Assembly (NCBI RefSeq): GCF_041146795.1
Contig: NC_135177.1
Coordinates: 37,294,560-37,358,559 of the forward strand
DNA from: Maylandia zebra
Taxonomy: Eukaryota > Chordata > Actinopteri > Cichliformes > Cichlidae
Direction: 5' to 3'
Length of the DNA: 64,000 bases
The notes under the pieces were generated by a model. The model had not been told where the DNA came from, ran no database searches, and saw only the letters and a program-made list of their open reading frames with translations. Below, piece after piece: positions 20,260 to 63,745 of this stretch. The number at the start of each line of letters is the position of its first letter. Positions within the stretch are counted from its first letter, which is position 1. The translations under genes and the position numbers were made by a program.

Positions 20260-22923
20260 TCAATCATCTCTGGCTTTAGTGAACCACCTGAAGGGTTTTC
20301 GCAGAGTTTTTCCCAACGCTGAAAAAAACCTGGAAATTTTGGACTTTTTGGGAGGACCGGGGATGACTCCGAGGCGCATTTTTAGATGCTTTGTCAGAAC
20401 CTCATCAAAAGACGCATCCTTTGCCATCGCAGCCTTTAACACAGTGTCTGGGGAGCCAAACTCCTTGATGAGGCATTTGGTCATTTTCTTGATGAACTTT
20501 TTCTTGTCCTTCATCAGACTTGTGACGGACTCTGTGCTGCTGAGTTCAGGCTGCATCAGATCTCTCAGACGCTTGAGGATCGCGTCAGGTTCTTTTGTAG
20601 TACATGCTGCACTGGCAAAAAAGTGCTGAGTTTCAGGTTTGGATTTTCTGATGACTCTCATCATGAGGAGAACGGCGAGGTCACTGGAAATTTTCTCAGC
20701 ATCAGAAGATGACGCTGATACAGACCTCATCTCTGACATGTCAGAGGAATCCTTGGGTGAGCCTGAAACACTGGCAGAGCGTTTTTGTGGGGAAATGCTC
20801 CCAGACTTTGGTGTCTGATCAGGTGTCTGATCAGGTGAGTGATCAGGTACCAGAAAGCATTTTTCTGGGGTACTGCTCCCAGACTTTGGTGACTGATCAG
20901 GTGACTGATCAGGTGACTGATAAGGTACCACAAAGCATGTTTCTGGGGTACTGCTCCCAGACTTTGGTGTCTGATCAGGTGACTGATCAGGTGACTGATC
21001 AGGTGACTGAAAAGGTACCACAAAGCATGTTTCTGGGGTACTGCTCCCAGACTTTGGTGACTGATCAGGTGTCTGATCAGGTGACTGATCAGGTGACTGA
21101 AAAGGTACCACAAAGCATTTTTCTGGGGTAATGCTCCCAGACTTTGGTGTCTGATCAGGTGACTGATCAGGTGACTGAAAAGGTACCACAAAGCATCTTT
21201 CTGGGGTACTGCTCCCAGACTTTGGTGACTGATCAGGTGACTGATCAGGTGACTGATAAGGTACCAGAGAGCATTTTTCTGGGGTACTGCTCCCAGACTT
21301 TGGTGTTACAGGTGTCGGAACAGATTCTCTTCCACTTCCATCTGAATCTGTGCTGGTTTCCTTTGTTGGGATCTTCGTTCTTTTAATAATGTTCTGGATT
21401 TCTTCCACAGCCACAGAAATTTTGTCCTCAATCAGGTGATCTTCGTCTTCGTTCTCCACCCAGAGTAAAAGTTTTTGTACAAACTTTTCTACTGCGTCTT
21501 CTACGAGCACATAGAGGACTTCAGCAGAAAAGGGAGGCTTGGATCCATGTGCTGGTTGTGGAGTCCTGCAGATGACGGTGTCAGACAGGGATCTACCCAT
21601 TACAGGTTCGGGGACTTGATACAGTCGATCCGTCATAAGTAGATCAAACATTTTTGCCGTTAACTCCACAGTGAAATCTCTGGTTGCTCCACCAGTTCTA
21701 AAGTTTTCCACTGTTTTGTGGATGCTGAAGAGTTTTTCTTCCTTTGTTAATTTCTCATACAACTGATTAACGTCTGATCTAATCGCGTCGAAGTCGACGG
21801 GAGAGGAGCGTATGTAACGGAGCAGTGTGTTTCGGCTGGAAACCGTACTGTTATCAGAGGGCACCGTGTCACCTTTGGGGTCCTTGCAAATGTTTTTCAG
21901 ACAAACAAGAAATTTTCTGTTTGCCTTTATTACTTTTCTCAGGTCTTTTTTCGTTGTTTCAAATTGTTTTCTGGCAAACATGGAAAAGCGCTGTTTGCGT
22001 GCTTTGAGCCGGGAGTGAGAGGTGGATTGCAAACATCTGGAGAAGAAGTCTCTCAGCTTGTTGGTAATTAATCCTGCATTAAAGGCAGGACTCCTCTCAC
22101 AGGGCTCTTCGCTGCTTACATCCATGTCGCCAATGATCTCATTTACGATGTCAGCTGCAACCACTTCTACTGGGGTTGCAGCCCGGAAACTTTGGCTTCC
22201 TGCGGCTCGTTTTGTTTCGTCCTTTTCTGTTAGAGTTTCTTCCTCATCTTCATCTGTCATCTCTCCATCTGAGCTCCTTGATGACAGAATCACAGAAATC
22301 TCTTTGATTGCTGATTGCACGGACATCTTTGAATCCGTACTTTCTGTACCGGAATCAGAGCCGCTCGACAGCTCACGCGCGTGCCTTTTAAGGCACGAGG
22401 CAGCGTGGCAAACCATGCGGTGCAGCTTTTTAATATCACTACATTTGCCGCTGACATAAACGGCGGGGTCTTGCGGGAGATCGGGGCTTTCTCTAACGAG
22501 TTTGACCGTTGAGCTGACCTTTTCGGAGATCTCTTCCTCAACCATCCGTGTCAGCTCGTCAGTGCTCTCAGGTCGCTGTTCCAGGACGTTAAGAGCGCCG
22601 GCGATGGCAGCTGAGATGGAGTCTCCGAGGGACGGGCTTATTTTCCCCGCACCTAAAGGCTCCGGATCTTCCTTCATCATGCGATCCTGAATAACAGGAA
22701 GGGCATTTTTGAGGATTCTGCTAGAGGCGGTCTGAATGATTTCACAAATCATATCAGCGAGCACCGCTCGGACGCCTGAGTCGCATGTGCCACTTTCTAT
22801 CATGCTCCACTCAGCTCCAGAGAGCCTTTGGAAGCACCTGTTGAAAGGTGGCATAATCTGGTCTGGTGTGACCACGACTGTATTTTCGTTTTCGCTGCGT
22901 GTTGACATGGTTGTATCGCACAT
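20260..22923 (-). CDS. 887-residue single-exon protein of unknown family with SPDQ/TPKS tandem repeats
   Basis: An uninterrupted minus-strand frame of 887 codons runs from an ATG at 22921-22923 (a second Met is codon 6) to a TGA at 20260-20262. No signal peptide or membrane segment is seen. Residues 1-180 and 250-530 are mixed helical. They include related-looking segments, ADMICEIIQTAS near residue 56 and AADIVNEIIGDM near residue 258, that may be repeated helical modules. Residues around 220-240 are acidic. Residues about 538-712 are seven 26-30-residue repeats (SPDQSPDQTPKSGSSTPE...FVVPFQ) dense in S/T-P sites. The C-terminus is basic and amphipathic (FFSALGKTLRKPFRWFTK). I do not recognise the family. 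Length, codon integrity and a plausible upstream TATA-like box argue for a real gene. A retrogene-like or lineage-specific origin is possible because it has no introns. Confidence 0.75.
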   Translation of the reverse strand: MCDTTMSTRSENENTVVVTPDQIMPPFNRCFQRLSGAEWSMIESGTCDSGVRAVLADMICEIIQTASSRILKNALPVIQDRMMKEDPEPLGAGKISPSLGDSISAAIAGALNVLEQRPESTDELTRMVEEEISEKVSSTVKLVRESPDLPQDPAVYVSGKCSDIKKLHRMVCHAASCLKRHARELSSGSDSGTESTDSKMSVQSAIKEISVILSSRSSDGEMTDEDEEETLTEKDETKRAAGSQSFRAATPVEVVAADIVNEIIGDMDVSSEEPCERSPAFNAGLITNKLRDFFSRCLQSTSHSRLKARKQRFSMFARKQFETTKKDLRKVIKANRKFLVCLKNICKDPKGDTVPSDNSTVSSRNTLLRYIRSSPVDFDAIRSDVNQLYEKLTKEEKLFSIHKTVENFRTGGATRDFTVELTAKMFDLLMTDRLYQVPEPVMGRSLSDTVICRTPQPAHGSKPPFSAEVLYVLVEDAVEKFVQKLLLWVENEDEDHLIEDKISVAVEEIQNIIKRTKIPTKETSTDSDGSGRESVPTPVTPKSGSSTPEKCSLVPYQSPDQSPDQSPKSGSSTPERCFVVPFQSPDQSPDQTPKSGSITPEKCFVVPFQSPDQSPDQTPDQSPKSGSSTPETCFVVPFQSPDQSPDQSPDQTPKSGSSTPETCFVVPYQSPDQSPDQSPKSGSSTPEKCFLVPDHSPDQTPDQTPKSGSISPQKRSASVSGSPKDSSDMSEMRSVSASSSDAEKISSDLAVLLMMRVIRKSKPETQHFFASAACTTKEPDAILKRLRDLMQPELSSTESVTSLMKDKKKFIKKMTKCLIKEFGSPDTVLKAAMAKDASFDEVLTKHLKMRLGVIPGPPKKSKISRFFSALGKTLRKPFRWFTKARDD
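20790..21310 (-). repeat. Coding minisatellite, 78-bp unit with 12-bp SPDQ subunit
   Basis: Seven units of roughly 78-90 bp encode [SPDQ]2-3 followed by (S/T)PKSGS(S/I)TPE-x-C-(F/S)-(V/L)VP. Unit length varies by whole SPDQ (12-bp, tgatcaggtgac-type) steps, so the frame is always kept. Because unit lengths are multiples of three, other frames and the opposite strand are also open here; those frames are by-products. Confidence 0.93.
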
Positions 22924-23075
22924 TAGATTTTCTGGGTTTGAGAGAACAGCTGGATAATTTCCTTGTTGGGAGAACGCCGACTGTTGAACATTTGCAAACA
23001 GGTGAGCAGTGATGTTTCTGTGTGAGCGCTCCTATTTAAAGCTTTCCCTGCCTGTGACGTGGCTGTGACGATCAA
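22924..23075 (-). promoter_or_regulatory. Upstream region of the 887-residue gene: TATA-like box and CRE-like sites
   Basis: Read on the minus strand, tttaaatagg (23031-23040) lies about 110 bases before the ATG. Behind it are two cgtca half-sites, 23055-23060 and 23066-23070, resembling CRE elements. This arrangement fits a short 5' UTR of about 80 bases. Function is inferred from position only. Confidence 0.4.
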
Positions 23076-45845: not shown

Positions 45846-48800
45846 CTGAAAATAAACACACATCTGAATCACACTTGATGCTCTTTGTTTATTCATAGTA
45901 TATGTTTATAAGTTAATCAGAGATGTTTTTAATACCTCGCTCAGTCGTGGATGTTCATTGGAGAGTACAAGTCGCCTGAAACAAAGAACAGTTCAGCCGT
46001 TAAAGTCTGATCTCAGGTCTGTTTGACACAGCGTCCACACACCAGAATGACCACGGGTTGTGTTTCATCTGAACCACACGGTTAAACCATCTGACGCGTC
46101 TAGAGACCAGTTGGCATCTGGTTGCTGGAGATTGCCGGCTGTCACTGGGTGAGAATCGGTTGCAAACAGATTTATGCTTTTTCACCAAAAACCTCCTTGT
46201 GATTGCTTCGGTCACTGGCAGGTTGCTGTTGTCGTGTAGTTTGCATGCAGGAAGCTGATTTATCTGAAAATAGCTGCACTAAGTGAAAATTCGAAACAGT
46301 ACTTTGAAGTATTGTTTCAAAGTAAAAGCTGAACTCTGCAGGAGTCACAATAAGTCTGGGAGCAGCTTGTGTGAATGAAGCTGCTTCTGTCAATGACAAA
46401 TAAGGTCAGCAGAGATAATAACTTCCTGTTCTCACAGGACTCACAGGATATAGAAATGGCCTCTGAATAAACCTCCTGAAGCTCCTCTTCTCTTCCTGCT
46501 GAGACCTGCCGGTGATGATTTTCCACTTCAGGTGCAGAGACGAGAACAGAAAAAAAATCAGGTAAATATAAAAGTTATGAGTTGTTGAAGACAAACAGCA
46601 GCAATTACAGAAAGTTTGAGCTAAAGTAGAAAATGAGCAAACACTGAGCAAACTGTGTTTGTTTTTAACCTTTTCTGGAGGAAAACCACAGACTGTATAT
46701 AAAAGATGGATGTTTCCACTGTGACATCACCCACTGGTTTCTGACTGGTTTTAATCGTCAGCATCAGTCTTTCGGCTTTAACCGTGCTGGTTTTTGGAAA
46801 CAGAAGTGACCATGTTTGGGCGAGAAGGTGGAGTGTTAGCTTAGGGTAGCTAACTTGATGTCAGGCTGCATGCATTAACTGTGTGGATAGCCACTGATAC
46901 CTGCTAATTACTGCCAGGGCAGCTTTGCATGATTCACAGTGGAAAATAATCCTCCTTTATCCCATACTGGGCTTTGGTGAAGCCCTTCAGTCGATCTCTC
47001 TGACAGCATAAAAGATGGACGTAGCTCCCGAGTATGAAAAGTGTCTGAAACATGGATTCTTTCTAATTGCCACCAGGGGGCGATACATGTATTTGGAAAA
47101 AGACTTAAATTCCTAAAGCAGACTACAGGAAAATGACCCTTTGCCTCACCAACTGTGATGAGTTTATGGGCTCAGTCGCTCATACTAAGACAGACGTTGA
47201 GTCCTTTAAATTTCTGATCATATGCAGACTAGATTATCCATTTAAATAGTTGTTTTGGCCTCTTTCAGCTTTATTTGATAGACACGGAGAATAAAGGACA
47301 GGAAAGCGTGGGCCAGAGTGGGACCTGGGCTGGCTGCTGTCAGCTGTATGGTATGTAGTCGCCCGCTCAACACACTGAGCCAGTAGCGGTTTTAGATACG
47401 GGCGACACGGGCGGTTGCCCGGGGTGGCATCGTGGTGGGGGGGGGGGCATCACGGGCATCGGCAAAAAAAAAAAATGCTCGTACTCATGCTGCCCCGACG
47501 TCAGTGAAACATCGTTAGTATGTCACTGATATTTTCACTGAAGTAAATATATTAGTAAAACGCTCCCTCAGACTAATGTGACAAAACAACAAATATAATC
47601 ATGTAATAAAGAATGAATAATAAACATAAAAAAGAAAAGGTGCAAAAATGAAGACCGTTGATAAAGTAATTAACCACATTATTAAAAGGCAGCTTTGTTT
47701 CTCGGGCAGAACTCACAGGAGGCGGGTTCGTGCACGGTGACCACTGAGTAAACCATCTGCTGCTCTCGTTCAGCTGGACAGGCTGAGACCCGCTGACCAT
47801 GATTTTCCACTTCAGATACAAACACAGAGAGCAGAACAGAAGACAGAAGGTTTATTTATATAGCGCCAAGTCACAACAACGGATGGCTCAATGAGTTTTA
47901 TATTGTAAGGTAAAATATTGTACCAATAATACAAACAGGTGCTAGAGCAGCTTTGCATAATTCATAGTCCAAAATAATCCTTCTGTATCTCACACTGGGC
48001 CTCAGTCATCCTCCGCGGACGATCCATCGTCCAGTTTGCATTTCTGTTTGAGCGTTCTGATAAAAAACTATGAAACCTTTAATAATCGGTGACTCGTTTG
48101 AAGTTTGTGATATTTTATATAGTCACGATTTGACTGGACTTTTACTGCGTTTTGACATCAGGTGGTTCATTTTTTAAATATTTGGGCCTTGAGATTGTGA
48201 TTTTATAAACTTCTGAATAATTTTTCTAATACATTGTCAGGGGCTGCGTCTGTGTCCCAGCATTTTTTGAGTTATTTTGGTGTTTTGATTGTTTATTATA
48301 TACAGAGATAATGTTAGCTTATGTTTCATCTCTGTGTTTATGAGTCTTTTCCTTTGTTCTGTGTTCGTCTGTCTTGTCCTCTTTGTTTAACATCTAGTGA
48401 TTCCTGTGCGCTCGTCTCCTTTATCTGTTCCCGTGTGTCCCTCCTTGTTCCGTGTCTCCACAGTCTGTCGTGAGTTTCATGTCTGTGTCCACGTTGTCGA
48501 GCTCGTGTTGCCATGTCCATGTTTCCTGTTTAGTTTTTTTATTTTGAGGCTCTGCCGCTCATGTTCAGTGTGTTTAGTTTTACTTCCCCTGTGGCGTCAT
48601 GTTTGTCAGCTGTGCTTCTCAGGTGTTTCCACTTCCATCATTACCCTTCTGTGTATTTAAGTCCTCTTTCTTACTCTGCTCAGTGTCAGGTTGTCTGTTT
48701 GTCTGGTATCATGTACTTTACGTCTCAGGATTGCTTTCGTGCTTCGGTTCATGTTCATTTTCAGTTTTCGCATGCACCTGTTCTCATTCATGTGGGAGCT

Positions 48801-51800
48801 CTCTTCACTCTCTTCACTCTCTTCGCTCTGATCCTGAGGCTCTCTGGTTGGATACGTCCTCTCCGTGTGGTTTAGTGCACCCTCCGCCCTGCAGGTGAGC
48901 TCCTCCTCCTCCAGGTTCGGCACACAGCTGGTCACATGGTACGGGCTGGACTGTGAGGACTTAGTTTATCCCAGTTTAGAGTTTCATTTAGTTTTTTCCC
49001 AGCTCGCCTTGCCTTGTTTTCTGTTTGATATCAGCCTTAATAAACAGCTCGCTTTTCTGTTATACTTCGTTTTCTCTCCCGTGTCTGCTTTTGGGTCCAC
49101 GCCACAACACCCCGGCTGCTCAGCCATGACAGAACATCCTGATTCCAGACTGTTTCCCAATGTTGAAGGCTCAGAATCTACTCAGTGCGTCGCTACATCT
49201 CCAGGATCTGCATCTGAAAGTACAGTCTCAAATCTACCTGTGAAAGGCTTGTACTCTCTGTCCCGGGTTAGTAGACCTCAGAATGGCGATGTTAGTCCAG
49301 AACTCTTGTTGCAATTCATACGACTGGAATTTCTGACAAGACGGCTTAACAACTGCATAACAACTCGTGTTGTTGAGCCAGCCATGACCATTTCTGTTGA
49401 CTCCTTATGTGAGTTAAGTTATAGACTTGTGTACAGTTGGTAATGCTAATGGTGGGACAGAACGAGCCACCCAAGAGACAGAAACTAACCACTGACTGAT
49501 AAATCATGCTTTCAGGGACGATCATGTTAAAGATGTTTTTTGTGTGGATGAACCGGCTCCTCCGGAGATAAAATCTCTGCCCGGGGCCTCGGAGAGGCTG
49601 AGCTGGAGGCTTCAGTAAACTCGGACCCCTGGGAGTAACTGAGCTGGGGCTCTGGAGAGCCGTCCAGCATCCCGCCATGCCGCTGGCTCAACCGCGGCTT
49701 CACGTCGTCATCTACAGCCCCACCACCTCTTCAACGTTCTGTAGCTACCCATGCTGCCCTCAGCTCAATGCCTGCAGCTGCCACGCCACTACCTGCTCAA
49801 CAGGTTATGGTTTCCATTCTGCCATCTGGCCTTGCCACGTCCCAGCCAGAGGTCAACGCTTTGCCGAGTTGGTGCTCATTCTGAGGTCAACGCGTTGTCG
49901 GGACTTGTCCAGCATGCCAGGCATCCTCCAAGATCCATCCGGCGCCCACCAAGCCACCAGAGGATCTTTATTTTGGGTCCACGCCACAACAACCAGCCTC
50001 AGCCGTGACATAAAAACTGGCTGATGATGTTTCTAAGTGATGTAAGGTTTCAGCCTGCGGTGTTATGGTCATAACTTAATAACATTTACTTATTTTAATA
50101 TTTGTGCTGCTTCTCTAATAATACAAACACTGCTTATGAGTTGTGTTTCGTTCCAATCAATGAATGAACTTCAGTCAGTCAGTGCAGAGCAGTTAAAAGG
50201 AGCTCCAGACGTCCAGCTACAACTATCAAACATTTCCAAAATAAAAATGCAAGTGAGCAAAACCTGACTCAAAACGTTTTTGAAAAATAAAAATAAATAA
50301 ATAATAAAATAATATTGAATACTAATAAAAAAATATATGAAAAACATTGAATCAAATTAAATCAAGAGTCAAACAATTTAATTAGTAAATATGTAGCCTG
50401 TGTTAGACCTGCGACAGACTGCTCCGGCCCCTCGATCAAGACGAGGATAAGTGGAAGAGGATGGATGAAAAACACTCACAGGAAGTGGAGTCGGGCGTCG
50501 CAGCCACTGAATAAAATGCCTGAAATTCTTCTTCATGAGCTGCAGACTGTGAGACCTGCTGTGGATGATCGCGCCCTTCAGACAGAACAAACGTGACAAA
50601 GGAGGAAAGAACCGAAATATGAGCCGGAGTATGTGAACCACAGCAGCTGTGCTAAAGTGAAACAGGAGCTCACTCAGGCAGTAAAAGACGATTCCTGCGA
50701 TCAGGATCAGGAGAGCGATGACAGCACACACGATCAGAGGGATCTTCAGAGAGTCGCTCTCTTCACTCTCTTCACTCTGATCCTGAGGCTCTCTGGTTGG
50801 ATACGTCCTCTCCGTGTGGTTTAGTGCACTCTCCGCCCTGCAGGTGAGCTCCTCCTCCTCCAGGTACGGCACACAGCTGGTCACATGGTACGGGCTGGAC
50901 TGTGAGGACTCACCCTTGTTCTCTAACATGCGTCTGGAGGCCAACAGCCACACAATCTTAGGCGGCGGGTTACCTTCAGCTTGACACTGCAGCCTCCGGG
51001 GGGCGCTGTCTGAGCCACAGGGCATCTCCACCACAGAGAGGTTCAGGATGTGAGGCTCAGCTGGGAACAAGAAGCAGAAAAGTGATCTGATTAAAAATGG
51101 TTTTCCATCATGTGACACCTTAAACCAGCCTGGCATGAAACGCTCTCTGCTCCATTCACCCTGTTTGTTCATTGGCTTCCAGCCATGAGCCTGCGGCTAC
51201 GACCACACGAATGCGTTTTAGTTTGGAAACATCGTTTTCTCTCCATTTGCCCTCCCGTCCACACTGAGACGCGTTTTCCCCGAAGGAATACGAAGCATTT
51301 TGAAAACGGTGCTTTCGCGTCGTAGTGTGGACAGCAAAAACGGAGACTTTTGAAAATGATGACGCATGTTAGCCATGTGATGCAGTCATGTGGCCAATTA
51401 TTAGAACATGCTGTAGGTATTACAGGTACTGCACTGCAGTGGTTTGTATCATATCTATCTAATAGACTCCAGTTTGTGCATGTAAATGGAGAGTCCTCTT
51501 CACACACTGAGGTTAATTATGGAGTTCCACAGGGTTCAGTGCTAGGACCAATTCTGTTTACATTATACATGCTTCCCTTAGGCAGCATCATTAGAAGACA
51601 TAGCATACATTTACACTGCTATGCAGATGACACCCAGCTCTATCTGTCCATGAAGCCAGATAACACACACCAATGAGTTAAACTGCAGGAATGTCTTAAA
51701 GACATAAAGACCTGGATGGCCGCTAACTTTCTGCTTCTTAATTCAGATAAAACTGAGGTTATTGTACTCGGCCCTGAAAAGCTTAGAAATATGGTATCTA

Positions 51801-53996
51801 AACTAGTTCATGCATTTATTACTTCCAGGCTGGACGACTGTAATTCATTATTATCAGGAAGTCCTAAAAACTCCCTGAAAAGCCTTCAGCTGATCCAAAA
51901 TGCTGCAGCAAGAGTCCTGACAGGGACTAGAAAGAGAGAGCAGATTTCTCCTGTTTTGGCTTCCTGTTAAATCCAGAATTCAAAATCCTGCTCCTCACAT
52001 ACAAGGTCTTAAATAATCAGGCCCCATCTTATCTTAATGACCTTGTAGTACCATATCACCCTATTAGAGCACTTCGCTCTCGCTCTGCAGGCCTACTTGT
52101 TGTTCCTAGAGTATTTAAAAGTAGAATGGGAGGCAGAGCCTTCAGTTTTCAGGCCCCTCTTCTGTGGAACCAGCTTCCAGTTTGGATTCAGGAGACAGAC
52201 ACTATCTCTACTTTCAAGATTAGGCTTCAAACTTTCCTTTTTGCTAAAGCATATAGTTAGGGCTGGACCAGGTGACCCTGAATCCTCCCTTAGTTATGCT
52301 GCAATAGACGTAGGCTGCCGGGGGATTCCCATGATGCACTGGGTGTTTCCTTTCCAGTCACCTTTCTCACTCACTATGTGTTAATAGACCTCTCTGCATT
52401 GAATCATATCTGTTATTAACCTCTGTCTCTCTTCCACAGCATCTCTTTATCCTGTCTTCCTTCTCTCACCACAACCAATCACAGCAGATGGCCCCGCCCC
52501 TCCCTGAGCCTGGTTCTGCCGGAGGTTTCTTCCTGTTAAAAGGGAGTTTTTCCTTCCCACTGTCGCCAAAGTGCTGCTCATAGGGGGTCATATGATTGTT
52601 GGGTTTTTCTCTGTATCTATGAAGCGCCTTTAGGCGACTTTTGTTGTGATTTGGCGCTATATAAATAAAATTGAATTGAATTAAACAAAGATAGTGGAGG
52701 GCGTTATACAGCAGTTGTTTTGTTTGACAGCCCTGTTAAAGATTAATATCAGCCTGCACACGCTCCAGAGAGCTTTTCTTCAAATTCTTTAATTCTCACT
52801 CGCTTTTGCAACTTTGTACTTTTGTGTTACTCGCAGCAACAACTCCACCTCATTGTTAGTCCATTTAACACACTCGCTGCTTTTCCTCGACATTTTGCCG
52901 CCACGTTTCAGAGAGCGGGAAAGTAAATAAGCGGCAGAGACAAATGAGGCAGGTCGAATCTTCTTGCGTTTCACGCATGCACAAGAATAATTTACAGTCC
53001 AGTGTGACTCAAACCTCGGCAGAGTCAGAAGGTCGCTGTGTGGCTATCTTTCATTACAGTCTTTGCACCACAGAAGAAAGTGACTCATACGACTTTGATA
53101 ACTTTCAGTAAAAGCTGAACTCAACCTTACCTCCAACATAAAGCTTTGTCTTTGCTTCCTTAAAGTTCTTCCACCCGTCGAGCTTCACTCTGCAGAAGTA
53201 CGTGCCGTTATCAGTCACCTGTACATCCCTGATGAGGAGCGACCCATCCCCCCATCGAGGGTCTCCTTTCAGGGAATGTTTTAAATCGGAAAATGCACAG
53301 GGATTGGCTCCATGCATGGAATAATTTTTTACTGGACAGTCCAAGAACGGAGGAGTGTTTGATGCTGTGAACTTCCATGTGACCTTGATCATTCCTGAAT
53401 AATCCCGTGTGGGGGTGAAGAAGCAGCCGAGGACAGCATCTTCCCCTCTGGAGACTCTGACCCCTGGAGAGACGGTCAGCTTCCATCCAGCTGAGACAGA
53501 ACCTGACAGAACACATCTGGATGGTTATTTTCATGTTTGAACTCACTGCACAGCTCCAACCAGCGACACTGGGACTCTAGCAGACCTCTGAAGATGCTCT
53601 GAGACACCAGCAGCAGGTTCTATAAGACCTGCAGAACATCCTCCAGCCTGCTGCGTCTGGACCAGGAGCCCCTCGGCCTTCAGAGACGCTCCTGGTCCAA
53701 CGAGGACACGTTTATCCATCTGTGGCCTGGTTTGAAAAAGCTCTAACCTCTGTGCTGTGGTGTTCACCACCGACCGCCGTGACTTTCAGTGACGGAAATA
53801 CAAAGCCGTTCCTCATTAAATTCTTATGTCCTGTGTGTCTGAATGAATGACTTAAAGGAAAATCCAGATCTAAAGTCAGGATATCTCTACTGTGAGTCTT
53901 ATGATCCTCTCTGGTGCCATCCTGCTTCAACCCAGATTCAAAGTTCTTACCTGAGACGATCGCACTCAGAATGAGGGAGAAACGCTGCGGCCACAT
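45415..53996 (-). CDS. siglec15l: Siglec-15-like lectin receptor A, tyrosine-bearing tail (seven coding exons plus 3' UTR exon)
   Basis: A minus-strand gene of about 369 residues. Coding exons: 53951-53996, 53131-53502, 50674-51060, 50480-50575, 47717-47809, 46445-46525, 45941-45975. All junctions are phase 1. Residues 1-16 form a signal peptide. Residues 16-139 form a V-set domain with C42-C119, an extra C71/C84 pair and Arg120 in YFCRV, at the place of the sialic-acid-binding Arg of Siglecs. Residues 140-240 form a C2-set domain ([24 protein letters not shown]) as in Siglec-15. The TM segment (about 246-266) is uncharged. The tail has tyrosines at 290, 321, 351 and 362. YSVV (321) is ITIM-like with a non-standard -2 residue, and YSPM (362) is a YxxM motif. 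The role is inferred as a sialic-acid-sensing immune receptor. The tail exons at 46-48 kb are assigned here by phase and because the gene's stop and poly(A) signal follow them; a separate broken gene is the alternative. Confidence 0.8.
45936..45975 (-). CDS. siglec15l: siglec15l A exon 7: C-terminus and stop
   Basis: Acceptor ctttgtttcag; reads (C)[10 protein letters not shown] then TGA at 45941-45943. A donor GCGAG|GTATTA follows the stop and joins the 3' UTR exon. Flanking sequence aligns with the terminal exon of paralogue B. Confidence 0.65.
46445..46525 (-). CDS. siglec15l: siglec15l A exon 6: cytoplasmic tail module 3
   Basis: 81 bases, phase 1-1, acceptor ctgcacctgaag, donor TCCT|GTGAGT. 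Encodes [10 protein letters not shown] ... [11 protein letters not shown]. Confidence 0.65.
46688..47125. repeat. Transposon copy ('actgtatataaa' family) in gene A intron
   Basis: Shares its start with 38180-38960. It includes gccaccagggggcgata (47069-47085), a CTCF-like match probably carried by the repeat. Confidence 0.5.
47395..47475. mobile_element. hAT-like terminus with poly-G run
   Basis: The sequence ccagtagcggttttagatac ... gggcggttgcccgggg followed by a G-run resembles the left end at 15867 (cagtggcggtcctag, poly-C). Fragment only. Confidence 0.5.
47717..47809 (-). CDS. siglec15l: siglec15l A exon 5: cytoplasmic tail module 2
   Basis: 93 bases, phase 1-1, acceptor gtatctgaag, donor TCCT|GTGAGT. 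Encodes [10 protein letters not shown] ... [11 protein letters not shown]. Same pattern as modules 1 and 3. Confidence 0.65.
47845..47940 (-). mobile_element. L2-like LINE 3' tail fragment
   Basis: The sequence ggtttatttatatagcgccaagtcacaac is the reverse complement of the L2-like 3' end. Confidence 0.65.
48236..49131 (+). mobile_element. 'gggtcc'-family repeat carrying a Siglec exon fragment
   Basis: Blocks ttatttt-gaggctctg, cccctgtgg and gtatttaagtcctc, an aataaac signal, and the end gcttttgggtccacgccac ... ccatgaca match the family at 5.8 and 8.0 kb. Inside it, 48798-48961 is lectin-gene sequence. Confidence 0.5.
48798..48961 (-). pseudogene. Orphan fragment of a siglec15l C2/stalk exon
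   Basis: About 164 bases are nearly identical to part of exon 3 of the two lectin genes (compare 50757-50911), reading [18 protein letters not shown] and [12 protein letters not shown] on the minus strand. It contains one extra 9-base cttcactct-type unit in the acidic stalk part and several substitutions. It stops abruptly at both sides, with no splice sites, so it cannot be used as a normal exon. Confidence 0.85.
49132..50010 (+). mobile_element. Second 'gggtcc'-family repeat with degenerate proline-rich frames
   Basis: The right end tattttgggtccacgccacaac ... agccgtgacat repeats the terminus found at 49.1 kb. The interior (ggctctggagagccgtccag, gccatctgg) resembles the interior of 56.4-57.3 kb. 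Frames are broken. Confidence 0.5.
50480..50575 (-). CDS. siglec15l: siglec15l A exon 4: cytoplasmic tail module 1
   Basis: 96 bases, phase 1-1, acceptor ctgtctgaag, donor TCCT|GTGAGT. Encodes [10 protein letters not shown] ... [12 protein letters not shown]. Homologous to paralogue B exon 59738-59827. Confidence 0.7.
50674..51060 (-). CDS. siglec15l: siglec15l A exon 3: C2-set domain plus transmembrane segment
   Basis: Acceptor ttgttcccag, donor CTGA|GTGAGC. The C2 domain has Cys165 and Cys213, an acidic stalk (QSEESEES) and TM segment [17 protein letters not shown]. Confidence 0.9.
51170..51366. mobile_element. DNA transposon remnant, left part (copy A)
   Basis: The sequence ggctacgaccacacgaatgcg ... 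gtccacactgagacgcgttt ... cgtcgtagtgtggacag is typical of a fish DNA transposon. It is continued on the far side of the LINE insertion at 52684-52990. Confidence 0.55.
51367..52683 (+). mobile_element. L2-like LINE, 5'-truncated, inserted in a DNA transposon (copy A)
   Basis: Reverse-transcriptase C-terminal half with [18 protein letters not shown] and the catalytic CYADDTQLY motif. Next come [12 protein letters not shown] and [16 protein letters not shown], then the 3' UTR and the tail ctatataaataaaattgaatt. A TGA after MKPDNTHQ breaks the frame. Copy A also lacks 182 bases present in copy B. Lies in the V-C2 intron of gene A. Confidence 0.9.
52684..52990 (-). mobile_element. DNA transposon remnant with Myb/SANT-like frame start (copy A)
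   Basis: A minus-strand frame at 52789-52974 begins [11 protein letters not shown] and includes [19 protein letters not shown], a tryptophan-led DNA-binding-like start common in fish transposon-derived frames. It is cut off after 61 codons. Not a host gene. Confidence 0.5.
53131..53502 (-). CDS. siglec15l: siglec15l A exon 2: V-set domain
   Basis: Acceptor tgttctgtcag, donor GGAG|GTAAGG. The V-set carries GCFFTP (first Cys), DNGTYFCRV (second Cys and candidate sialic-acid Arg) and WKF. N-glycosylation sequons NYS and NGT. Confidence 0.92.
53951..53996 (-). CDS. siglec15l: siglec15l A exon 1: signal peptide
   Basis: ATG at 53994-53996, [15 protein letters not shown], donor TCAG|GTAAGA, phase 1. 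Identical in paralogue B. Confidence 0.8.
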
Positions 53997-54329
53997 CCTC
54001 AGACTGACAAAGAAATGAAGCCGTCAAACAACAAATTCAGGAAGTGTCAAATGTGTCATTTCTAAATTGATCATTTCCTGTTAGTTAAAGAGAAGAATAA
54101 ATATGTGAGCGAGCCCAGGGCCACCTCAGGGTTTCACACATTTTACTGCCTGTTTTCTTTGTGTTTTCATGTTTGTCAATCAGGACGTTTGCTGGAGTCT
54201 GGTGGTCTTCATCAAAGCCTGTCTCTGTGACGAAGCTGCTTTTCACAGTGTGCTTGTCACTGTGATGATTTCTCTGCTCGATTCTTGATTCATTTGAGTC
54301 TGTGGTTCCTGTTTTGACTGTCTTCTAGT

Positions 54330-56429: not shown

Positions 56430-57310
56430 AGATTTTTGTCATGATTTATCAGTTCTTGGTTTGGGGGTATTTTAGGGTTGAAGTTCTTAGTCTTCTGATT
56501 TCGGTGTTCAAGAGCTGGTCGATTTAGAGACCGTTACTCTCTCCAGGGCCTCTCCAGAGGCTGAGGTTCAGCTCTAGGTGACTCTGGACCCTGGAGACGA
56601 AGAAGCCAGTGCAACCTGTTTTTCCTGAGAGCTTTACTGGGCTGTCTCAGCAGCCGTCCTCTGCTGGAAGCTATAGTGAGTTCATTTGGCCAGCTGAGGA
56701 CTTCATCCTGCTGTAACTGCCTGGGCAGAGCCATCTCTACCAGAGGTCTTCGTACCTGCTGGTCCTGTTTCTGCCTCTGCCGGAGGGTCTGAGGGGCCCG
56801 TCCAGTTGCCTTCTGTTCCCACTGGGGGTTCAGGAGAACCGCGCCAGCATCACGCCACATCAGCTGGGGGTTCTGGTGAGCCTGGCCAGCATCTCCTCGT
56901 GTCTGTTGACGGCTCCGGTGAGTCTGTTCAGCCACCAGCTCCCATGCTGCCATCTGGTCCTGTTCATGCCTCTGTGTTTAAGCCTTGTGTTTGCCTCTGT
57001 TAGTTGGTTTGTCTGCGTACCTTCCCCTGTATTTCTGCTGTGTGTCTCTCCATGTTCCAGGTTCCACGTCTCAGGTTTTCAGGTTTCTTATTGCAGGTTT
57101 TTTTGGTCCTTGTATTATTATTTTGTAGCTGTTCCCAGTTTAGGTTTGGTTAGTGCCGCTCCCTGCCATGCTCTGCCTTGGTTTGTATTTTGTTTTCCTT
57201 TATTAATAAACTTTGTCGCAGCTACGCTGTCGTCAGTGCTTGCGTTTGGGTCCACATCATTCATCTCCTGACGATCTGCCTCGCAGATTGTGACAGAGGT
57301 CTCCATATGA
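56430..57310 (+). mobile_element. 'gggtcc'-family repeat with degenerate frames
   Basis: The interior (gctgaggttcagctctagg, ccatctggtcctgttc) resembles 49.5-49.9 kb. The right end tttattaataaactttgtcg ... gcgtttgggtccacatc ... attgtgaca matches the family terminus. Confidence 0.5.
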
Positions 57311-57950
57311 CTCAGTCCAACACTCTGCATTAATAAGTCTCCATTTTCCTGGAGACTGTGGGTCTAGAGAGGGATACTTGTTCTTGGAGACCTGTATCAG
57401 GGGAGAATTCTCACGTCCTTTAATGACCTTAAACCACAGATTCAGTTTTGGAGGTATTTGCAGCTACAGTATTTATTGCTCAAAACCTTTGGTTCCCCCT
57501 CCACACCACCTCCAAGTACTGACCATCTCAGCTACATCAAGAAAGTGTTTGGGGGAGGTCGTGAGGTCTCTAATTAAAAATTTGTTCCCAAAATCAGGGG
57601 ATGCAACAGGCATGAGCTTACTGCAGCCTTTATTTCATGTGTTTTTCCTTTCAATTTAATCAGCAGCAGCACTATGTATCTATTTGTGGACGTCCCCATG
57701 CCCACATTTAACCTCCATCCACTCTGCCTCCACTAATGGCCCGGGGTGAACAAGGGTTTGGTGGACCAGAGACTGCATGCAGCCCTTGTCCAATCTTGAC
57801 ACCTTACCAGAATGCTGTATGTCCCTCCTGGACCGGGGGAGGGTCCAGAATATTAAACAAATTAAATCTATATGGTTGACATTTTACTCTAAACTGTAAA
57901 ACTTTGTAATTTTGGTATTTTCACTGTAGAGGATGTGCAAATATTAAGGG
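57311..57950. other. Intergenic, nothing recognised
   Basis: No feature assigned. Confidence 0.3.
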
Positions 57951-58982: not shown

Positions 58983-58999
58983 TCAGATGGCACATGACC
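58983..58999 (-). CDS. siglec15l: siglec15l B exon 6: C-terminus and stop
   Basis: Acceptor tcgtttcag; reads (G)SCAI then TGA at 58983-58985. Acceptor and upstream intron align with the terminal exon of gene A (gaaac...agttcagccrttaaag on the plus strand). Confidence 0.55.
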
Positions 59000-61900
59000 C
59001 TGAAACGAAATGAAGAGTTCAGCCATTAAAGCCATTATCAGATGACAATATCAATATCATGGTGCTGCAGAGCTGAAAGTGACTTTAATGCCTTTTATAC
59101 TGTACAGTCATATTTTTGGTTTTCATTGGCGCAGATTCAGATCATTTCTTATTTCGTCAGAATAACGAAGGAGCAAAAATGAGACATGTTTAGCCTGACC
59201 AAAATAAAGATATCATCTGTCACAGCATGATTATCAAATGATGCGAGCATCAGGAATGTGGAGGTTCTGCTGTTTCCATTAGTAACAGCTCAGGTGAGGA
59301 AGACGAGGCAGGTGTGAAACCAGCTGTTACCTTGCTGTGTTGTTTATGTGTGGACACTCAGAGCACTTTTACAGTATGGTCTCACCTGGTCGCTCTGTCA
59401 GCTGTCAGCTCCTCACTCACCTGCTTCCTCGTTGGTTTCTGGAGCTGAAAGAAAAAAAATCTCATCTGAGGTGAAAACAGCTGCTTTGCTCACAGGATTC
59501 GTTTCATTTCCAGTCGAAACAGCAGAGAATCCTCACGGATGGACTCGCTGCTACAGGTCCTCTCAGGTCTGTGCATAAAGGTGACCTGCTCTGCTCGTTC
59601 CCACATTCACTGTCTAAAATTATCCTTCTTGGTCTCATGCTGGCCCCTCAGCGTTGTTGTTTCAGATCAATGAATTCTTTATTGATTTCTTTTCACATCC
59701 ATGAAAAAGCTGAAACTTTAGAAGCTTTGGGACTCACGGGAAGTGGAGTCGGACATGGCGCCGGCTGAATGAACTGTCTGAGGATTTCCTGCTGCGGAGT
59801 CTGAGACCTGCTGCTGACAACTGTTTCCTTCACACACAAACAAGATGACAACAATGACTGAAAGACTCCAGCTGCCTCAAACTAAGCTCTGAACAGGCCA
59901 CAGGTTGTTTTATGTTGCAATATCTGGAGTGACCACTAAGAGAACCTGGCAGCACTGAGTAGAAACAGGAGCTCACTCAGGCAGTAAAAGACGATTCCTG
60001 CGATCAGGATCAGGAGAGTGATGACACCACGCACGATCAGAGGGATCTTCAGAGAGTCGCTCTCTTCACTCTCTTCACTCTGATCCTGAGGCTCTCTGGT
60101 TGGATACGTCCTCTCCGTGTGGTTTAGTGCACTCTCCGCCCTGCAGGTGAGCTCCTCCTCCTCCAGGTACGGCACACAGCTGGTCACATGGTACGGGCTG
60201 GACTGTGAGGACTCACCCTTGTTCTCTAACATGCGTCTGGAGGCCAACAGCCACATAATCTTAGGCGGCGGGTTACCTTCAGCTTGACACTGCAGCCTCC
60301 GGGGGGCGCTGTCTGAGCCACAGGGCATCTCCACCACAGAGAGGTTCAGGATGTGAGGCTCAGCTGGGAACAAGAAGCAGAAAAGTGATCTGATTAAAAA
60401 TGGTTTTCCATCATGTGACACCTTAAACCAGCCTGGCATGAAACGCTCTCTGCTCCATTCACCCTGTTTGTTCATTGGCTTCCAGCCATGAGCCTGCGGC
60501 TACGACCACACGAATGCGTTTTAGTTTGGAAACATCGTTTTCTCTCCATTTGCCCTCCCGTCCACACTGAGACGCGTTTTCCCCGAAGGAATACGAAGCA
60601 TTTTGAAAACGGTGCTTTCGCGTCGTAGTGTGGACAGCAAAAACGGAGACTTTTGAAAATGATGACGCATGTTAGCCATGTGATGCAGTCATGTGGCCAA
60701 TTATTAGAACATGCTGTAGGTATTACAGGTACTGCACTGCAGTGGTTTGTATCATATCTATCTAATAGACTCCAGTTTGTGCATGTAAATGGAGAGTCCT
60801 CTTCACACACTGAGGTTAATTATGGAGTTCCACAGGGTTCAGTGCTAGGACCAATTCTGTTTACATTATACATGCTTCCCTTAGGCAGCATCATTAGAAG
60901 ACATAGCATACATTTACACTGCTATGCAGATGACACCCAGCTCTATCTGTCCATGAAGCCAGATAACACACACCAATGAGTTAAACTGCAGGAATGTCTT
61001 AAAGACATAAAGACCTGGATGGCCGCTAACTTTCTGCTTCTTCATTCAGATCAAACTGAGGTTATTGTACTCGGCCCTGAAAAGCTTAGAAATATGGTAT
61101 CTAAGCAGATTCTTACTCTGGATGGCATTACCTTGGCCTCCAGTAACACTGTGAGGAACCTTGGAGTCATGTTTGACCAGGACATGTCCTTCAATGCACA
61201 TATTAAACAAATATGTAAGACTGCGTTCTTCCATTTGTGCAACATCTCTAAAGTTAGAAATATCCTGTCTCAGAGTGACGCTGAAAAACTAGTTCATGCA
61301 TTTATTACTTCCAGGCTGGACGACTGTAATTCATTATTATCAGGAAGTCCTAAAAACTCCCTGAAAAGCCTTCAGCTAATCCAAAATGCTGCAGCAAGAG
61401 TCCTGACAGGGACTAGAAAGAGAGAGCAGATTTCTCCTGTTTTGGCTTCCTGTTAAATCCAGAATTCAAAATCCTGCTCCTCACATACAAGGTCTTAAAT
61501 AATCAGGCCCCATCTTATCTTAATGACCTTGTAGTACCATATCACCCTATTAGAGCACTTCGCTCTCGCTCTGCAGGCCTACTTGTTGTTCCTAGAGTAT
61601 TTAAAAGTAGAATGGGAGGCAGAGCCTTCAGTTTTCAGGCCCCTCTTCTGTGGAACCAGCTTCCAGTTTGGATTCAGGAGACAGACACTATCTCTACTTT
61701 CAAGATTAGGCTTCAAACTTTCCTTTTTGCTAAAGCATATAGTTAGGGCTGGACCAGGTGACCCTGAATCCTCCCTTAGTGATGCTGCAATAGACATAGG
61801 CTGCCGGGGATTCCCATGATGCATTGAGTTTTTCCTTTCCAGTCACCTTTCTCACTCACTATGCATTAATAGACCTCTCTGCATTGAATCATATCTGTTA

Positions 61901-63481
61901 TTAACCTCTGTCTCTCTTCCACAGCATGTCTTTATCCCGTCTTCCTTCTCTCACCCCAACCAATCACAGCAGATGGCCCCGCCCCTCCCTGAGCCTGGTT
62001 CTGCCGGAGGTTTCTTCCTGTTAAAAGGGAGTTTTTCCTTCCCACTGTCGCCAAAGTGCTGCTCATAGGGGGTCATATGATTGTTGGGTTTTTCTCTGTA
62101 TCTATGAAGCGCCTTGAGGTGACTTTTGTTGTGATTTGGCGCTATATAAATAAAATTGAATTGAATTAAACAAAGATAGTGGAGGGCGTTATACAGCAGT
62201 TGTTTTGTTTGACAGCCCTGTTAAAGATTAATATCAGCCTGCACACGCTCCAGAGAGCTTTTCTTCGAATTCTTTAATTCTCACTCGCTTTTGCAACTTT
62301 GTACTTTTGTGTTACTCGCAGCAACAACTCCACCTCATTGTTAGTCCATTTAACACACTCGCTGCTTTCCCTCGACATTTTGCCGCCACGTTTCAGAGAG
62401 CGGGAAAGTAAATAAGCGGCAGACAGAAATGAGGCAGGTCGAATCTTCTTGCGTTTCACGCATGCACAAGAATAATTTACAGTCCAGTGTGACTCAAACC
62501 TCGGCAGAGTCAGAAGGTCGCTGTGTGGCTATCTTTCATTACAGTCTTTGCACCACAGAAGAAAGTGACTCATACAACTTTGATAACTTTCAGTAAAAGC
62601 TGAACTCGACCTTACCTCCAACATAAAGCTTTGTCTTTGCTTCCTTAAAGTTCTTCCACCCGTCGAGCTTCACTCTGCAGAAGTACGTGCCGTTATCAGT
62701 CAGCTGTACATCCCTGATGAGGAGCGACCCATTCCCCCATCGAGGGTCTCCTTTCAGGGAATGTTTTAAATCGGAAAATGCACAGGGATTGGCTCCATGC
62801 ATGGAATCATTTTTTACTGGACAGTCCAAGAACGGAGGAGTGTTTGATGCTATGAACTTCCATGTGACCTTGATCATTCCTGAATAATCCCGTGTGGGGG
62901 TGAAGAAGCAGCCGAGGACAGCATCTTCCCCTCTGGAGACTCTGACCCCTGGAGAGACGGTCAGCTTCCATCCAGCTGAGACAGAACCTGACAGAACACA
63001 TCTGGATGGTTATTTTCATGTTTGAACTCACTGCACAGCTCCAACCAGCGACACTGGGACTCTAGCAGACCTCTGAAGATGCTCTGAGACACCAGCAGCA
63101 GGTTCTATAAGACCTGCAGAACATCCTCCAGCCTGCTGCGTCTGGACCAGGAGCCCCTCGGCCTTCAGAGACGCTCCTGGTCCAACGAGGACACGTTTAT
63201 CCATCTGTGGCCTGGTTTGAAAAAGCTCTAACCTCTGTGCTGTGGTGTTCACCACCGACCGCCGTGACTTTCAGTGACGGAAATACAAAGCCGTTCCTCA
63301 TTAAACTCTTATGTCCTGTGTGTCTGAATGAATGACTTAAAGGAAAATCCAGATCTAAAGTCAGGATATCTCTACTGTGAGTCTTATGATCCTCTCTGGT
63401 GCCGTCCTGCTTCAACCCAGATTCAAAGTTCTTACCTGAGACGATCGCACTCAGAATGAGGGAGAAACGCTGCGGCCACAT
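58983..63481 (-). CDS. siglec15l: Siglec-15-like lectin receptor B, TM arginine and tyrosine-free tail (six exons)
   Basis: A minus-strand tandem paralogue of gene A, about 311 residues. Exons: 63436-63481, 62616-62987, 59977-60363, 59738-59827, 59421-59444, 58983-58999. All junctions are phase 1. The ectodomain matches A (signal, V-set with C42/C119 and Arg120, C2-set). Replacements are T61I, Y76D, D101N (creating sequon NGS), V111L and V176M. The TM segment carries Arg251 ([17 protein letters not shown]) where A has Cys. The tail ([35 protein letters not shown]) has no tyrosine; His288 replaces the tyrosine of the A module. A charged TM residue close to the outer face with a short tail is the pattern of activating receptors that pair with FcR-gamma- or DAP12-type adaptors. 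That function is an inference. The two last exons are short and rest on splice sites and phase only. Confidence 0.8.
59421..59444 (-). CDS. siglec15l: siglec15l B exon 5: 24-base tail microexon
   Basis: Acceptor tttttctttcag, donor GCAG|GTGAGT, phase 1-1; encodes PETNEEA. Short, so tentative. Confidence 0.5.
59738..59827 (-). CDS. siglec15l: siglec15l B exon 4: cytoplasmic tail module
   Basis: 90 bases, phase 1-1, acceptor gtgtgtgaag, donor TCCC|GTGAGT. Aligns with gene A exon 50480-50575 (QQVS-SAA ... MSDSTS versus TPDSTS), but strongly diverged. Confidence 0.7.
59977..60363 (-). CDS. siglec15l: siglec15l B exon 3: C2-set domain plus TM with arginine
   Basis: Four base differences from gene A, all amino-acid changing; three fall within five TM codons (C251R, A252G, A255T). 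Donor CTGA|GTGAGC conserved. Confidence 0.9.
60473..60659. mobile_element. DNA transposon remnant, left part (copy B)
   Basis: Same sequence as 51170-51366. Confidence 0.55.
60660..62165 (+). mobile_element. L2-like LINE, 5'-truncated (copy B)
   Basis: Same insertion as 51367-52683 but keeps the 182 bases lost from copy A. It therefore has a longer frame after the shared stop codon, 61019-61456 ([20 protein letters not shown] and onward). Same CYADDTQLY motif and same inactivating TGA. Confidence 0.9.
62166..62480 (-). mobile_element. DNA transposon remnant with Myb/SANT-like frame start (copy B)
   Basis: Same as 52684-52990, with substitutions V12L and K30E in the short frame ([20 protein letters not shown]). 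Confidence 0.5.
62616..62987 (-). CDS. siglec15l: siglec15l B exon 2: V-set domain
   Basis: Four base differences from gene A, all amino-acid changing. Keeps YFCRV with the candidate sialic-acid Arg. Confidence 0.92.
63436..63481 (-). CDS. siglec15l: siglec15l B exon 1: signal peptide
   Basis: ATG at 63479-63481; identical to the gene A exon, donor TCAG|GTAAGA. Confidence 0.8.
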
Positions 63482-63745
63482 CCTCAGACTGACAAAGAAA
63501 TGAAGCCGTCAAACAACAAATTCAGGAAGTGTCAAATGTGTCATTTCTAAATTGATCATTTCCTGTTAGTTAAAGAGAAGAATAAATATGTGAGCGAGCC
63601 CAGGGCCACCTCAGGGTTTCACACATTTTACTGCCTGTTTTCTTTGTGTTTTCATGTTTGTCAATCAGGACGTTTGCTGGAGTCTGGTGGTCTTCATCAA
63701 AGCCTGTCTCTGTGACGAAGCTGCTTTTCACAGTGTGCTTGTCAC

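Follow-up and report, generated by a model that had tools for sequence, protein, structure and literature searches.

Can two neighboring receptor genes with nearly the same ectodomain carry different signaling ends, and what would each end do? The question is raised by a 64,000-nucleotide stretch of Maylandia zebra DNA (C11:37294560-37358559, here called the window) from a genome of 962 Mb in 63 contigs. On its minus strand lie two related, side-by-side receptor genes, A and B, with B upstream of A. The original prediction held that B had gained an arginine in its transmembrane (TM) segment and lost all tail tyrosines, which would make it an activating partner of an inhibitory-type A. We modeled A with seven coding exons (369 predicted residues) and B with six (311 predicted residues). 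All introns of both models have GT/AG ends and phase 1, and neither C11 model contains a stop or a broken splice site. The exons are as follows.

63436..63481, minus strand: gene B exon 1, coding for the signal peptide (open frame from an ATG, phase 1, donor GTAAGA)
62616..62987, minus strand: gene B exon 2, coding for the V-set Ig domain that holds the YFCR Arg (97% to the A V exon in the own-genome search; splice sites)
59977..60363, minus strand: gene B exon 3, coding for a C2-type Ig domain, a stalk and a TM that carries Arg251, Gly252 and Thr255 (exon model, block alignment, copy on contig C1)
59738..59827, minus strand: gene B tail exon 1, homologue of an A tyrosine module, the Tyr position being occupied by His (68.6% between 59732-59865 and A 50474-50610, E 9e-11)
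59421..59444, minus strand: gene B tail exon 2, a predicted exon of 24 bp (phase-compatible, with CAG as acceptor and GTGAGT as donor)
58983..58999, minus strand: gene B last coding exon, predicted, no Tyr (74 columns aligned with A 45942-46012 at 73%, E 0.001; other frame, by eye)
53951..53996, minus strand: gene A exon 1, signal peptide (gene model)
53131..53502, minus strand: gene A exon 2, coding for the V-set Ig domain (the protein joined from exons 1-3 matches Pfam V-set at 1e-13)
50674..51060, minus strand: gene A exon 3, coding for a C2-type Ig domain, a stalk and a TM without charge (gene model, own-genome search)
50480..50575, minus strand: gene A tail exon 1, AFYSVA (gene model, motif scan)
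47717..47809, minus strand: gene A tail exon 2, MVYSVV, a near-ITIM (gene model, motif scan, own-genome search)
46445..46525, minus strand: gene A tail exon 3, EVYSEA (gene model, motif scan, own-genome search)
45941..45975, minus strand: gene A last coding exon, DLYSPM, a YxxM (gene model, motif scan)

The interval 59977-60363, where the TM difference with Arg in B had been claimed, is exactly one minus-strand exon, exon 3 of B, with CAG and GTGAGC flanks in phase 1, and the TM text reads as quoted. Four tail modules, three in A and one in B, are preceded by the weaker AAG form of acceptor; in-frame CAG acceptors lie within these modules, and the same tyrosines result from them (read by eye). 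The last two B exons are tiny, and the B tail is built from predicted exons. In A, the frame of the TM exon stays open through the following intron and tail exon 1 (50381-51196, 272 aa), and intron retention there would yield another tail. Elsewhere in the window, the minus strand at 20263-23031 holds a 923-residue open frame with an internal tandem repeat, for which no Pfam or PDB match was found at E 0.001.

To place the two genes in a family, we searched PDB sequences with A. Human Siglec-15 (7zoz) matched at i-E 1.4e-18 in one stretch across both Ig domains, the strongest single stretch among the best 60 of 137 matches. DSCAM topped the ranking through summed weak repeats (whole-sequence E 5.2e-19), with no single stretch within the limit. 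The YFCR Arg and an extra Cys pair of the V domain align with 7zoz; the V exon of A modeled alone in AlphaFold2 gave a mean pLDDT of 39.8, too low for a fold comparison. A genome search with the V exon placed a third gene on the plus strand at C11:37364092-37365913, 5.5 kb beyond the right end of the window; its match to human Siglec-15 has an i-E of 3e-47. As judged from its sequence, this neighbor is the canonical SIGLEC15, and because SIGLEC15 itself adjoins them, A and B are SIGLEC15 paralogues and not SIGLEC15 itself. The claim that the pair is Siglec-15-like was thereby borne out by the 7zoz match, the YFCR Arg, the extra Cys pair, and the gene next door. The neighboring SIGLEC15 is modeled with a TM Lys (GAKVLLLVGM) and a short tail lacking Tyr, a prediction in which the frame ends shortly after the TM and the first exon was picked among several joins. 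It lies in divergent orientation to A and B, and 81 of 275 aligned residues are identical.

Searching the same genome with the exon for the C2-type domain and TM returned six places, namely A, B, and a fragment described below, each on contigs C11 and C1. Of 123 candidates scored for the V exon, 78 places had an E up to 1; the clear ones are four A/B copies and two SIGLEC15 copies, and 71 others begin at E 2.6e-4 and extend upward. A place on contig C2 (C2:38208521, E 6.8e-6) was considered as a further paralogue and set aside by eye, as it reads into Fn3-like frames. Arrays with many V-set exon matches were also seen on C21 (2.9-3.8 Mb) and on C18 (0.8-1.5 Mb) when 150 out of 3195 candidates were scored, and these arrays are probably immune-receptor clusters. 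In PMC7226832, the Siglec-15 Arg (human R143) is described as essential, the Lys that binds DAP10/12 as conserved from fish to mammals, and cloned zebrafish Siglec-15 as not binding strongly to the tested glycans, which makes a shared sialic acid ligand of A and B unsure.

The signaling ends of A and B differ in both TM and tail. Codons 251, 252, and 255 read TGT, GCT, and GCT in A versus CGT, GGT, and ACT in B. The TM starts at residue 246, so that Arg251 of B is residue 6 of a 23-residue TM, whose hydrophobicity is kept despite the Arg (best 19-mer mean KD 2.58); the A TM is without charge. The A tail has 101 residues with four tyrosines over four exons (AFYSVA, MVYSVV, EVYSEA, and DLYSPM), versus 43 residues and no tyrosine across the three predicted tail exons of B. 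In module 1, AFYSVA of A faces TVHSAG of B, with His at the Tyr site. Both the four-tyrosine tail and its Tyr-free counterpart, with this His, had been predicted correctly. Tail exon 1 of B is related to tail exon 1 of A (68.6%, E 9e-11; score 308 versus a maximum of 171 in 200 shuffles) and more weakly to A tail exon 2 (58%, E 3.5e-8), and the two last exons match at 73% (E 0.001; score 174 versus a shuffle maximum of 145) in different frames. The own-genome search found modules 2 and 3 at four places at E up to 1, all of them in A on C11 or C1. The His of B is probably derived, because the homologous site is Tyr in all three A modules. A transcript that reads through, in which exon 3 of B is spliced to the tyrosine exons of A about 9 kb downstream, would join a charged TM to a tyrosine tail or give mixed transcripts. 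The two genes share a strand with B upstream, and the exon 3 donor of B and the tail exons of A are all phase 1; however, in-phase tail exons that close with a stop follow exon 3 within B itself, and the transcript must skip these as well as exons 1 to 3 of A, which leaves such splicing quite improbable.

Of the claimed gain of Arg and loss of Tyr, the loss is probable; for the Cys/Arg change at 251, either gene may be the changed one. The charged TM could be ancestral in the pair, with A having lost it through a CpG-type CGT to TGT change. CGT to TGT is a common type of mutation, and the canonical SIGLEC15 next door carries a TM Lys. However, that Lys is absent from both A and B. In a three-sequence MAFFT alignment its column is Leu256, five residues inside Arg251 rather than at 251, and Arg251 stands opposite a gap, although the placement of the Lys on Leu256 is uncertain because only 81 of 275 residues are identical. 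The Ala255/Thr255 change, moreover, argues the opposite way by the same CpG rule. We regard this reversed direction as rather unlikely. It concerns history only, is compatible with the explanation that we favor below, and its likelihood does not add to those of the other readings.

We next give the extent of the similarity between the two genes. They share a block of 3.6 kb that begins upstream of exon 1 and stops 15 bp beyond the TM exon.

50659..54260, minus strand: recently copied block, A side, covering exons 1-3 plus upstream sequence (alignment to 59962-63745)
59962..63745, minus strand: recently copied block, B side (alignment to the A side)
48805..48961, minus strand: broken third copy of a stretch of the C2 exon, within the region of the A tail (its 157 bp are 97.5% like A and B; protein match 86%, one TAA inside)

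Over the block, A and B differ by 31 substitutions (0.86%), one 183-bp indel, and one 1-bp indel, and beyond the TM exon identity drops from >99% to about 69%. The ectodomains are near-identical, with 5 of the first 245 residues differing, or 8 of 268 when the TM is included; together with the gene models, the copied block upheld the claim of near-identical ectodomains with different signaling ends. From these identities we read the block as recently copied and the tail exons as anciently diverged. Duplication of the whole locus as the sole recent origin is out, given the fall from >99% to about 69% past the TM exon. Upstream of the block, the single match links A-side 58591-58371 to 77347-77132 in window numbering (61.5%, E 5e-9); its partner lies >13 kb from the B block and was taken for a repeat. 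No old homology was found upstream of the block beside B, so the layout may stem from conversion or from insertion of a block before an older tail. Weak 3'-flank matches join 48344-48649 and 48962-49206 to 56957-57353, taken for repeats, and 47930-48104 to 59572-59744. The middle of the block contains transposon-like sequence, recognized by eye. The fragment at 48805-48961 has the look of a dead third copy.

The region is present twice in the assembly, in the C11 window and at C1:40713549-40823548, where it is colinear and about 99.6% alike (386 mismatches in 105,726 aligned colinear bases, counted over blocks of more than 2 kb with gaps left uncounted). About 580 kb further left, one 9-kb sample was 97.1-98.5% alike. 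The C1 copy may be the other haplotype, part of a sex-chromosome-like pair, or a recent duplication. On C1, A again has Cys and B has Arg, the TM versions and tail exons are identical to those on C11, and the B coding sequence has no premature stop. Because the C1 copy keeps both TM versions, a base error at the Arg codon, the possibility that had been named as damaging to the original prediction, is very unlikely. An assembly or base-calling artefact more generally could be suspected, since the near-identical second copy on another contig is an unexplained assembly duplication. Yet many sites, as well as the 183-bp indel, distinguish A from B, and on C11 and C1 alike the two genes are present at the same distance from each other and with the same TM codons. 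We therefore reject assembly error as the source of the pair and consider an artefact of either kind extremely improbable. Between C1 and C11 the V domain differs within genes (62616-62987 and 53131-53502): an N-glycosylation site at 101 is absent only from A of C11, and residue 122 of A, two past the YFCR Arg, is Lys or Glu.

To what extent could the substitution pattern be due to chance? Exons 1-3 comprise 805 coding bases; eight of the 31 substitutions lie there, and all eight are nonsynonymous (P of none being synonymous, 0.067). Three changes lie within 13 bp of the TM, with P 0.12 over the whole block; when the transposon-like part, whose bounds were set by the analyst, is taken out, 16 substitutions remain in 2291 bp and P is 0.038. 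Other small substitution clusters exist within that part. The probability that at least three of eight changes strike TM codons was 0.025, and that at least one Lys or Arg arises in the TM from eight random changes was 0.031. These chance tests overlap, were chosen after the data had been seen, and are weak. When the C1 copies are included, nine codons vary, all nonsynonymously; six are fixed between A and B, and three of these six lie in the TM. The TM triplet is fixed between copies, and three V-domain sites vary within genes.

This pattern bears on the main rival account, in which B is a drifting or decaying copy whose ectodomain was refreshed by recent copying while its old tail eroded and its Arg went unselected. 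The eight nonsynonymous changes fit relaxed constraint as well as they fit selection, and the last exon of B relates to that of A in a different frame (by eye). PMC5701461 likewise reports relaxed constraint in the SIGLEC11/SIGLEC16 tract. However, the C11 models are free of stops and broken splice sites, the C1 coding sequence has no premature stop and tail exons identical to those of C11, and the TM triplet is fixed between copies while the three V-domain sites vary within genes. We judge a drifting B unlikely, though a real rival.

What, then, would the two ends do? For B, the TM exon of the FcR-gamma/zeta family (PF11628) was found at five places in the same genome, all five over the cut-off. 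One of the five, at C3:47299838, reads ICYILDGILFLYG, and we take it to be FcR-gamma-like by its motif. A DAP12 TM peptide query gave one weak place in the genome (E 0.31, with a very short query). PMC2413239 describes one set of FcR-gamma partners whose TM has NxxR at its N-terminal end, and another motif for classical Fc receptors; NxxR was not seen at that end of B, which reads LIVR. A catfish receptor with a TM Lys and a short tail is described in PMC4810170 as having bound FcR-gamma and not DAP12. Adaptor coupling of B was thus upheld as plausible by the Arg at TM residue 6 of 23, the tail without Tyr, and the FcR-gamma-like exon, and the absence of the NxxR of PMC2413239 speaks against it.

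For A, a pattern scan of the tail with [ILVS]xYxx[ILV] for ITIM and TxYxx[VI] for ITSM gave no strict ITIM, no ITSM, and no ITAM, the nearest match being MVYSVV; the same scan found one YxxM. By the meanings of these motifs, MVYSVV could act as a relaxed ITIM and YSPM as a PI3K site. The label "inhibitory" for A was therefore not sustained: it is unproven because the tail offers no strict ITIM, only MVYSVV and YxxM, and the output of A may be either inhibitory or costimulatory. As for the anatomy of a paired receptor, the neighboring near-identical ectodomains and a basic-TM half with a short Tyr-free tail were found, and the ITIM half was not. As PMC6890642 has it, a tail ITIM and a basic TM residue are mutually exclusive among Siglecs, and the A/B pair obeys this rule in outline.

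Our preferred explanation is that A and B form a tandem Siglec-15-like pair, between which a 3.6-kb block with exons 1-3 was recently copied or converted, and that the older tails would have stayed different while the ectodomains were homogenized. Because its TM is uncharged and its tail has four tyrosines, A probably signals by itself, via SH2 proteins at MVYSVV and YxxM. Because of the Arg at the sixth TM residue and the short Tyr-free tail, B probably is adaptor-coupled; it would sit on the membrane with an Asp-bearing ITAM adaptor and activate, with FcR-gamma a more likely adaptor than DAP12. We lean towards this account as a whole, with B as the adaptor-coupled partner of a tyrosine-signaling A, and hold it to be somewhat probable. 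An FcR-gamma-coupled activating receptor is the favored form of B, the choice of adaptor and the direction of signaling being what we infer from TM and tail. The arrangement suggests that the two receptors could give different signals from the same trigger, on the presumption, drawn from the gene sequences, of splicing as modeled, expression of both genes, and a shared ligand.

Paired Siglecs are known from mammals; in primates SIGLEC5 and SIGLEC14 are, like SIGLEC11 and SIGLEC16, neighbors. In CD33-type Siglecs the C2 domain and TM lie on separate exons; in A and B they lie on one common exon. The closest likeness is to SIGLEC11 and SIGLEC16. In that pair, according to PMC5701461, about 9 kb separate the two tracts and conversion keeps the ectodomains similar: A and B, too, are neighbors about 9 kb apart with homogenized ectodomains and differing signaling ends, and their block edge likewise falls just past the TM exon, with diverged tails beyond. 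A basic TM residue is reported for Siglec-14 and Siglec-16 in PMC5701461 and PMC6890642. Unlike both mammalian pairs, the A/B lineage is Siglec-15-like, its tyrosine-bearing member A has no strict ITIM, and its functional pairing is a proposal. With Siglec-15 they share the V plus C2 architecture, phase-1 exons, the YFCR Arg, the extra Cys pair, and an adjacent locus; in contrast to it, they lack the TM Lys, A has a four-tyrosine tail, and the basic residue of B is an Arg aligned five residues nearer the outside. The TM1/NxxR receptors (LILRA2, PIR-A, NKp46, GPVI, and Xenopus XFL), as described in PMC2413239, resemble B in an Arg near the outer TM end and a short tail, whereas B lacks the Asn of NxxR and belongs to another Ig family. 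In zebrafish, siglec15l marks dendritic-like cells and brain macrophages according to the excerpts of PMC12698085 and PMC8501082; its name and myeloid/dendritic-like expression hint at a related gene, no pair is described in those excerpts, and the cells that express it hint at where to look for A and B. No paired Siglec-15-like set in fish was among the matches listed from titles and abstract starts of the open literature, in which subscription papers are mostly uncovered.

More tentatively, and as a possibility rather than a probability, three signaling solutions may have been built at a single locus on one Siglec-15 frame: SIGLEC15 with its TM Lys; A, which would have lost the charge and gained a tail with tyrosines; and B, which has the ectodomain in common with A and would have re-acquired a basic TM residue at another depth suiting FcR-gamma. 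A and B would then be a paired Siglec set of fish origin, separate in its evolution from the CD33-type pairs of mammals and kept in step by ectodomain copying. If true, the pair would be a system in which a TM triplet and a tail separate two outputs, and, set beside the mammalian pairs, it would show the same solution arising repeatedly, namely one ectodomain with two opposite outputs and a likeness kept by copying.
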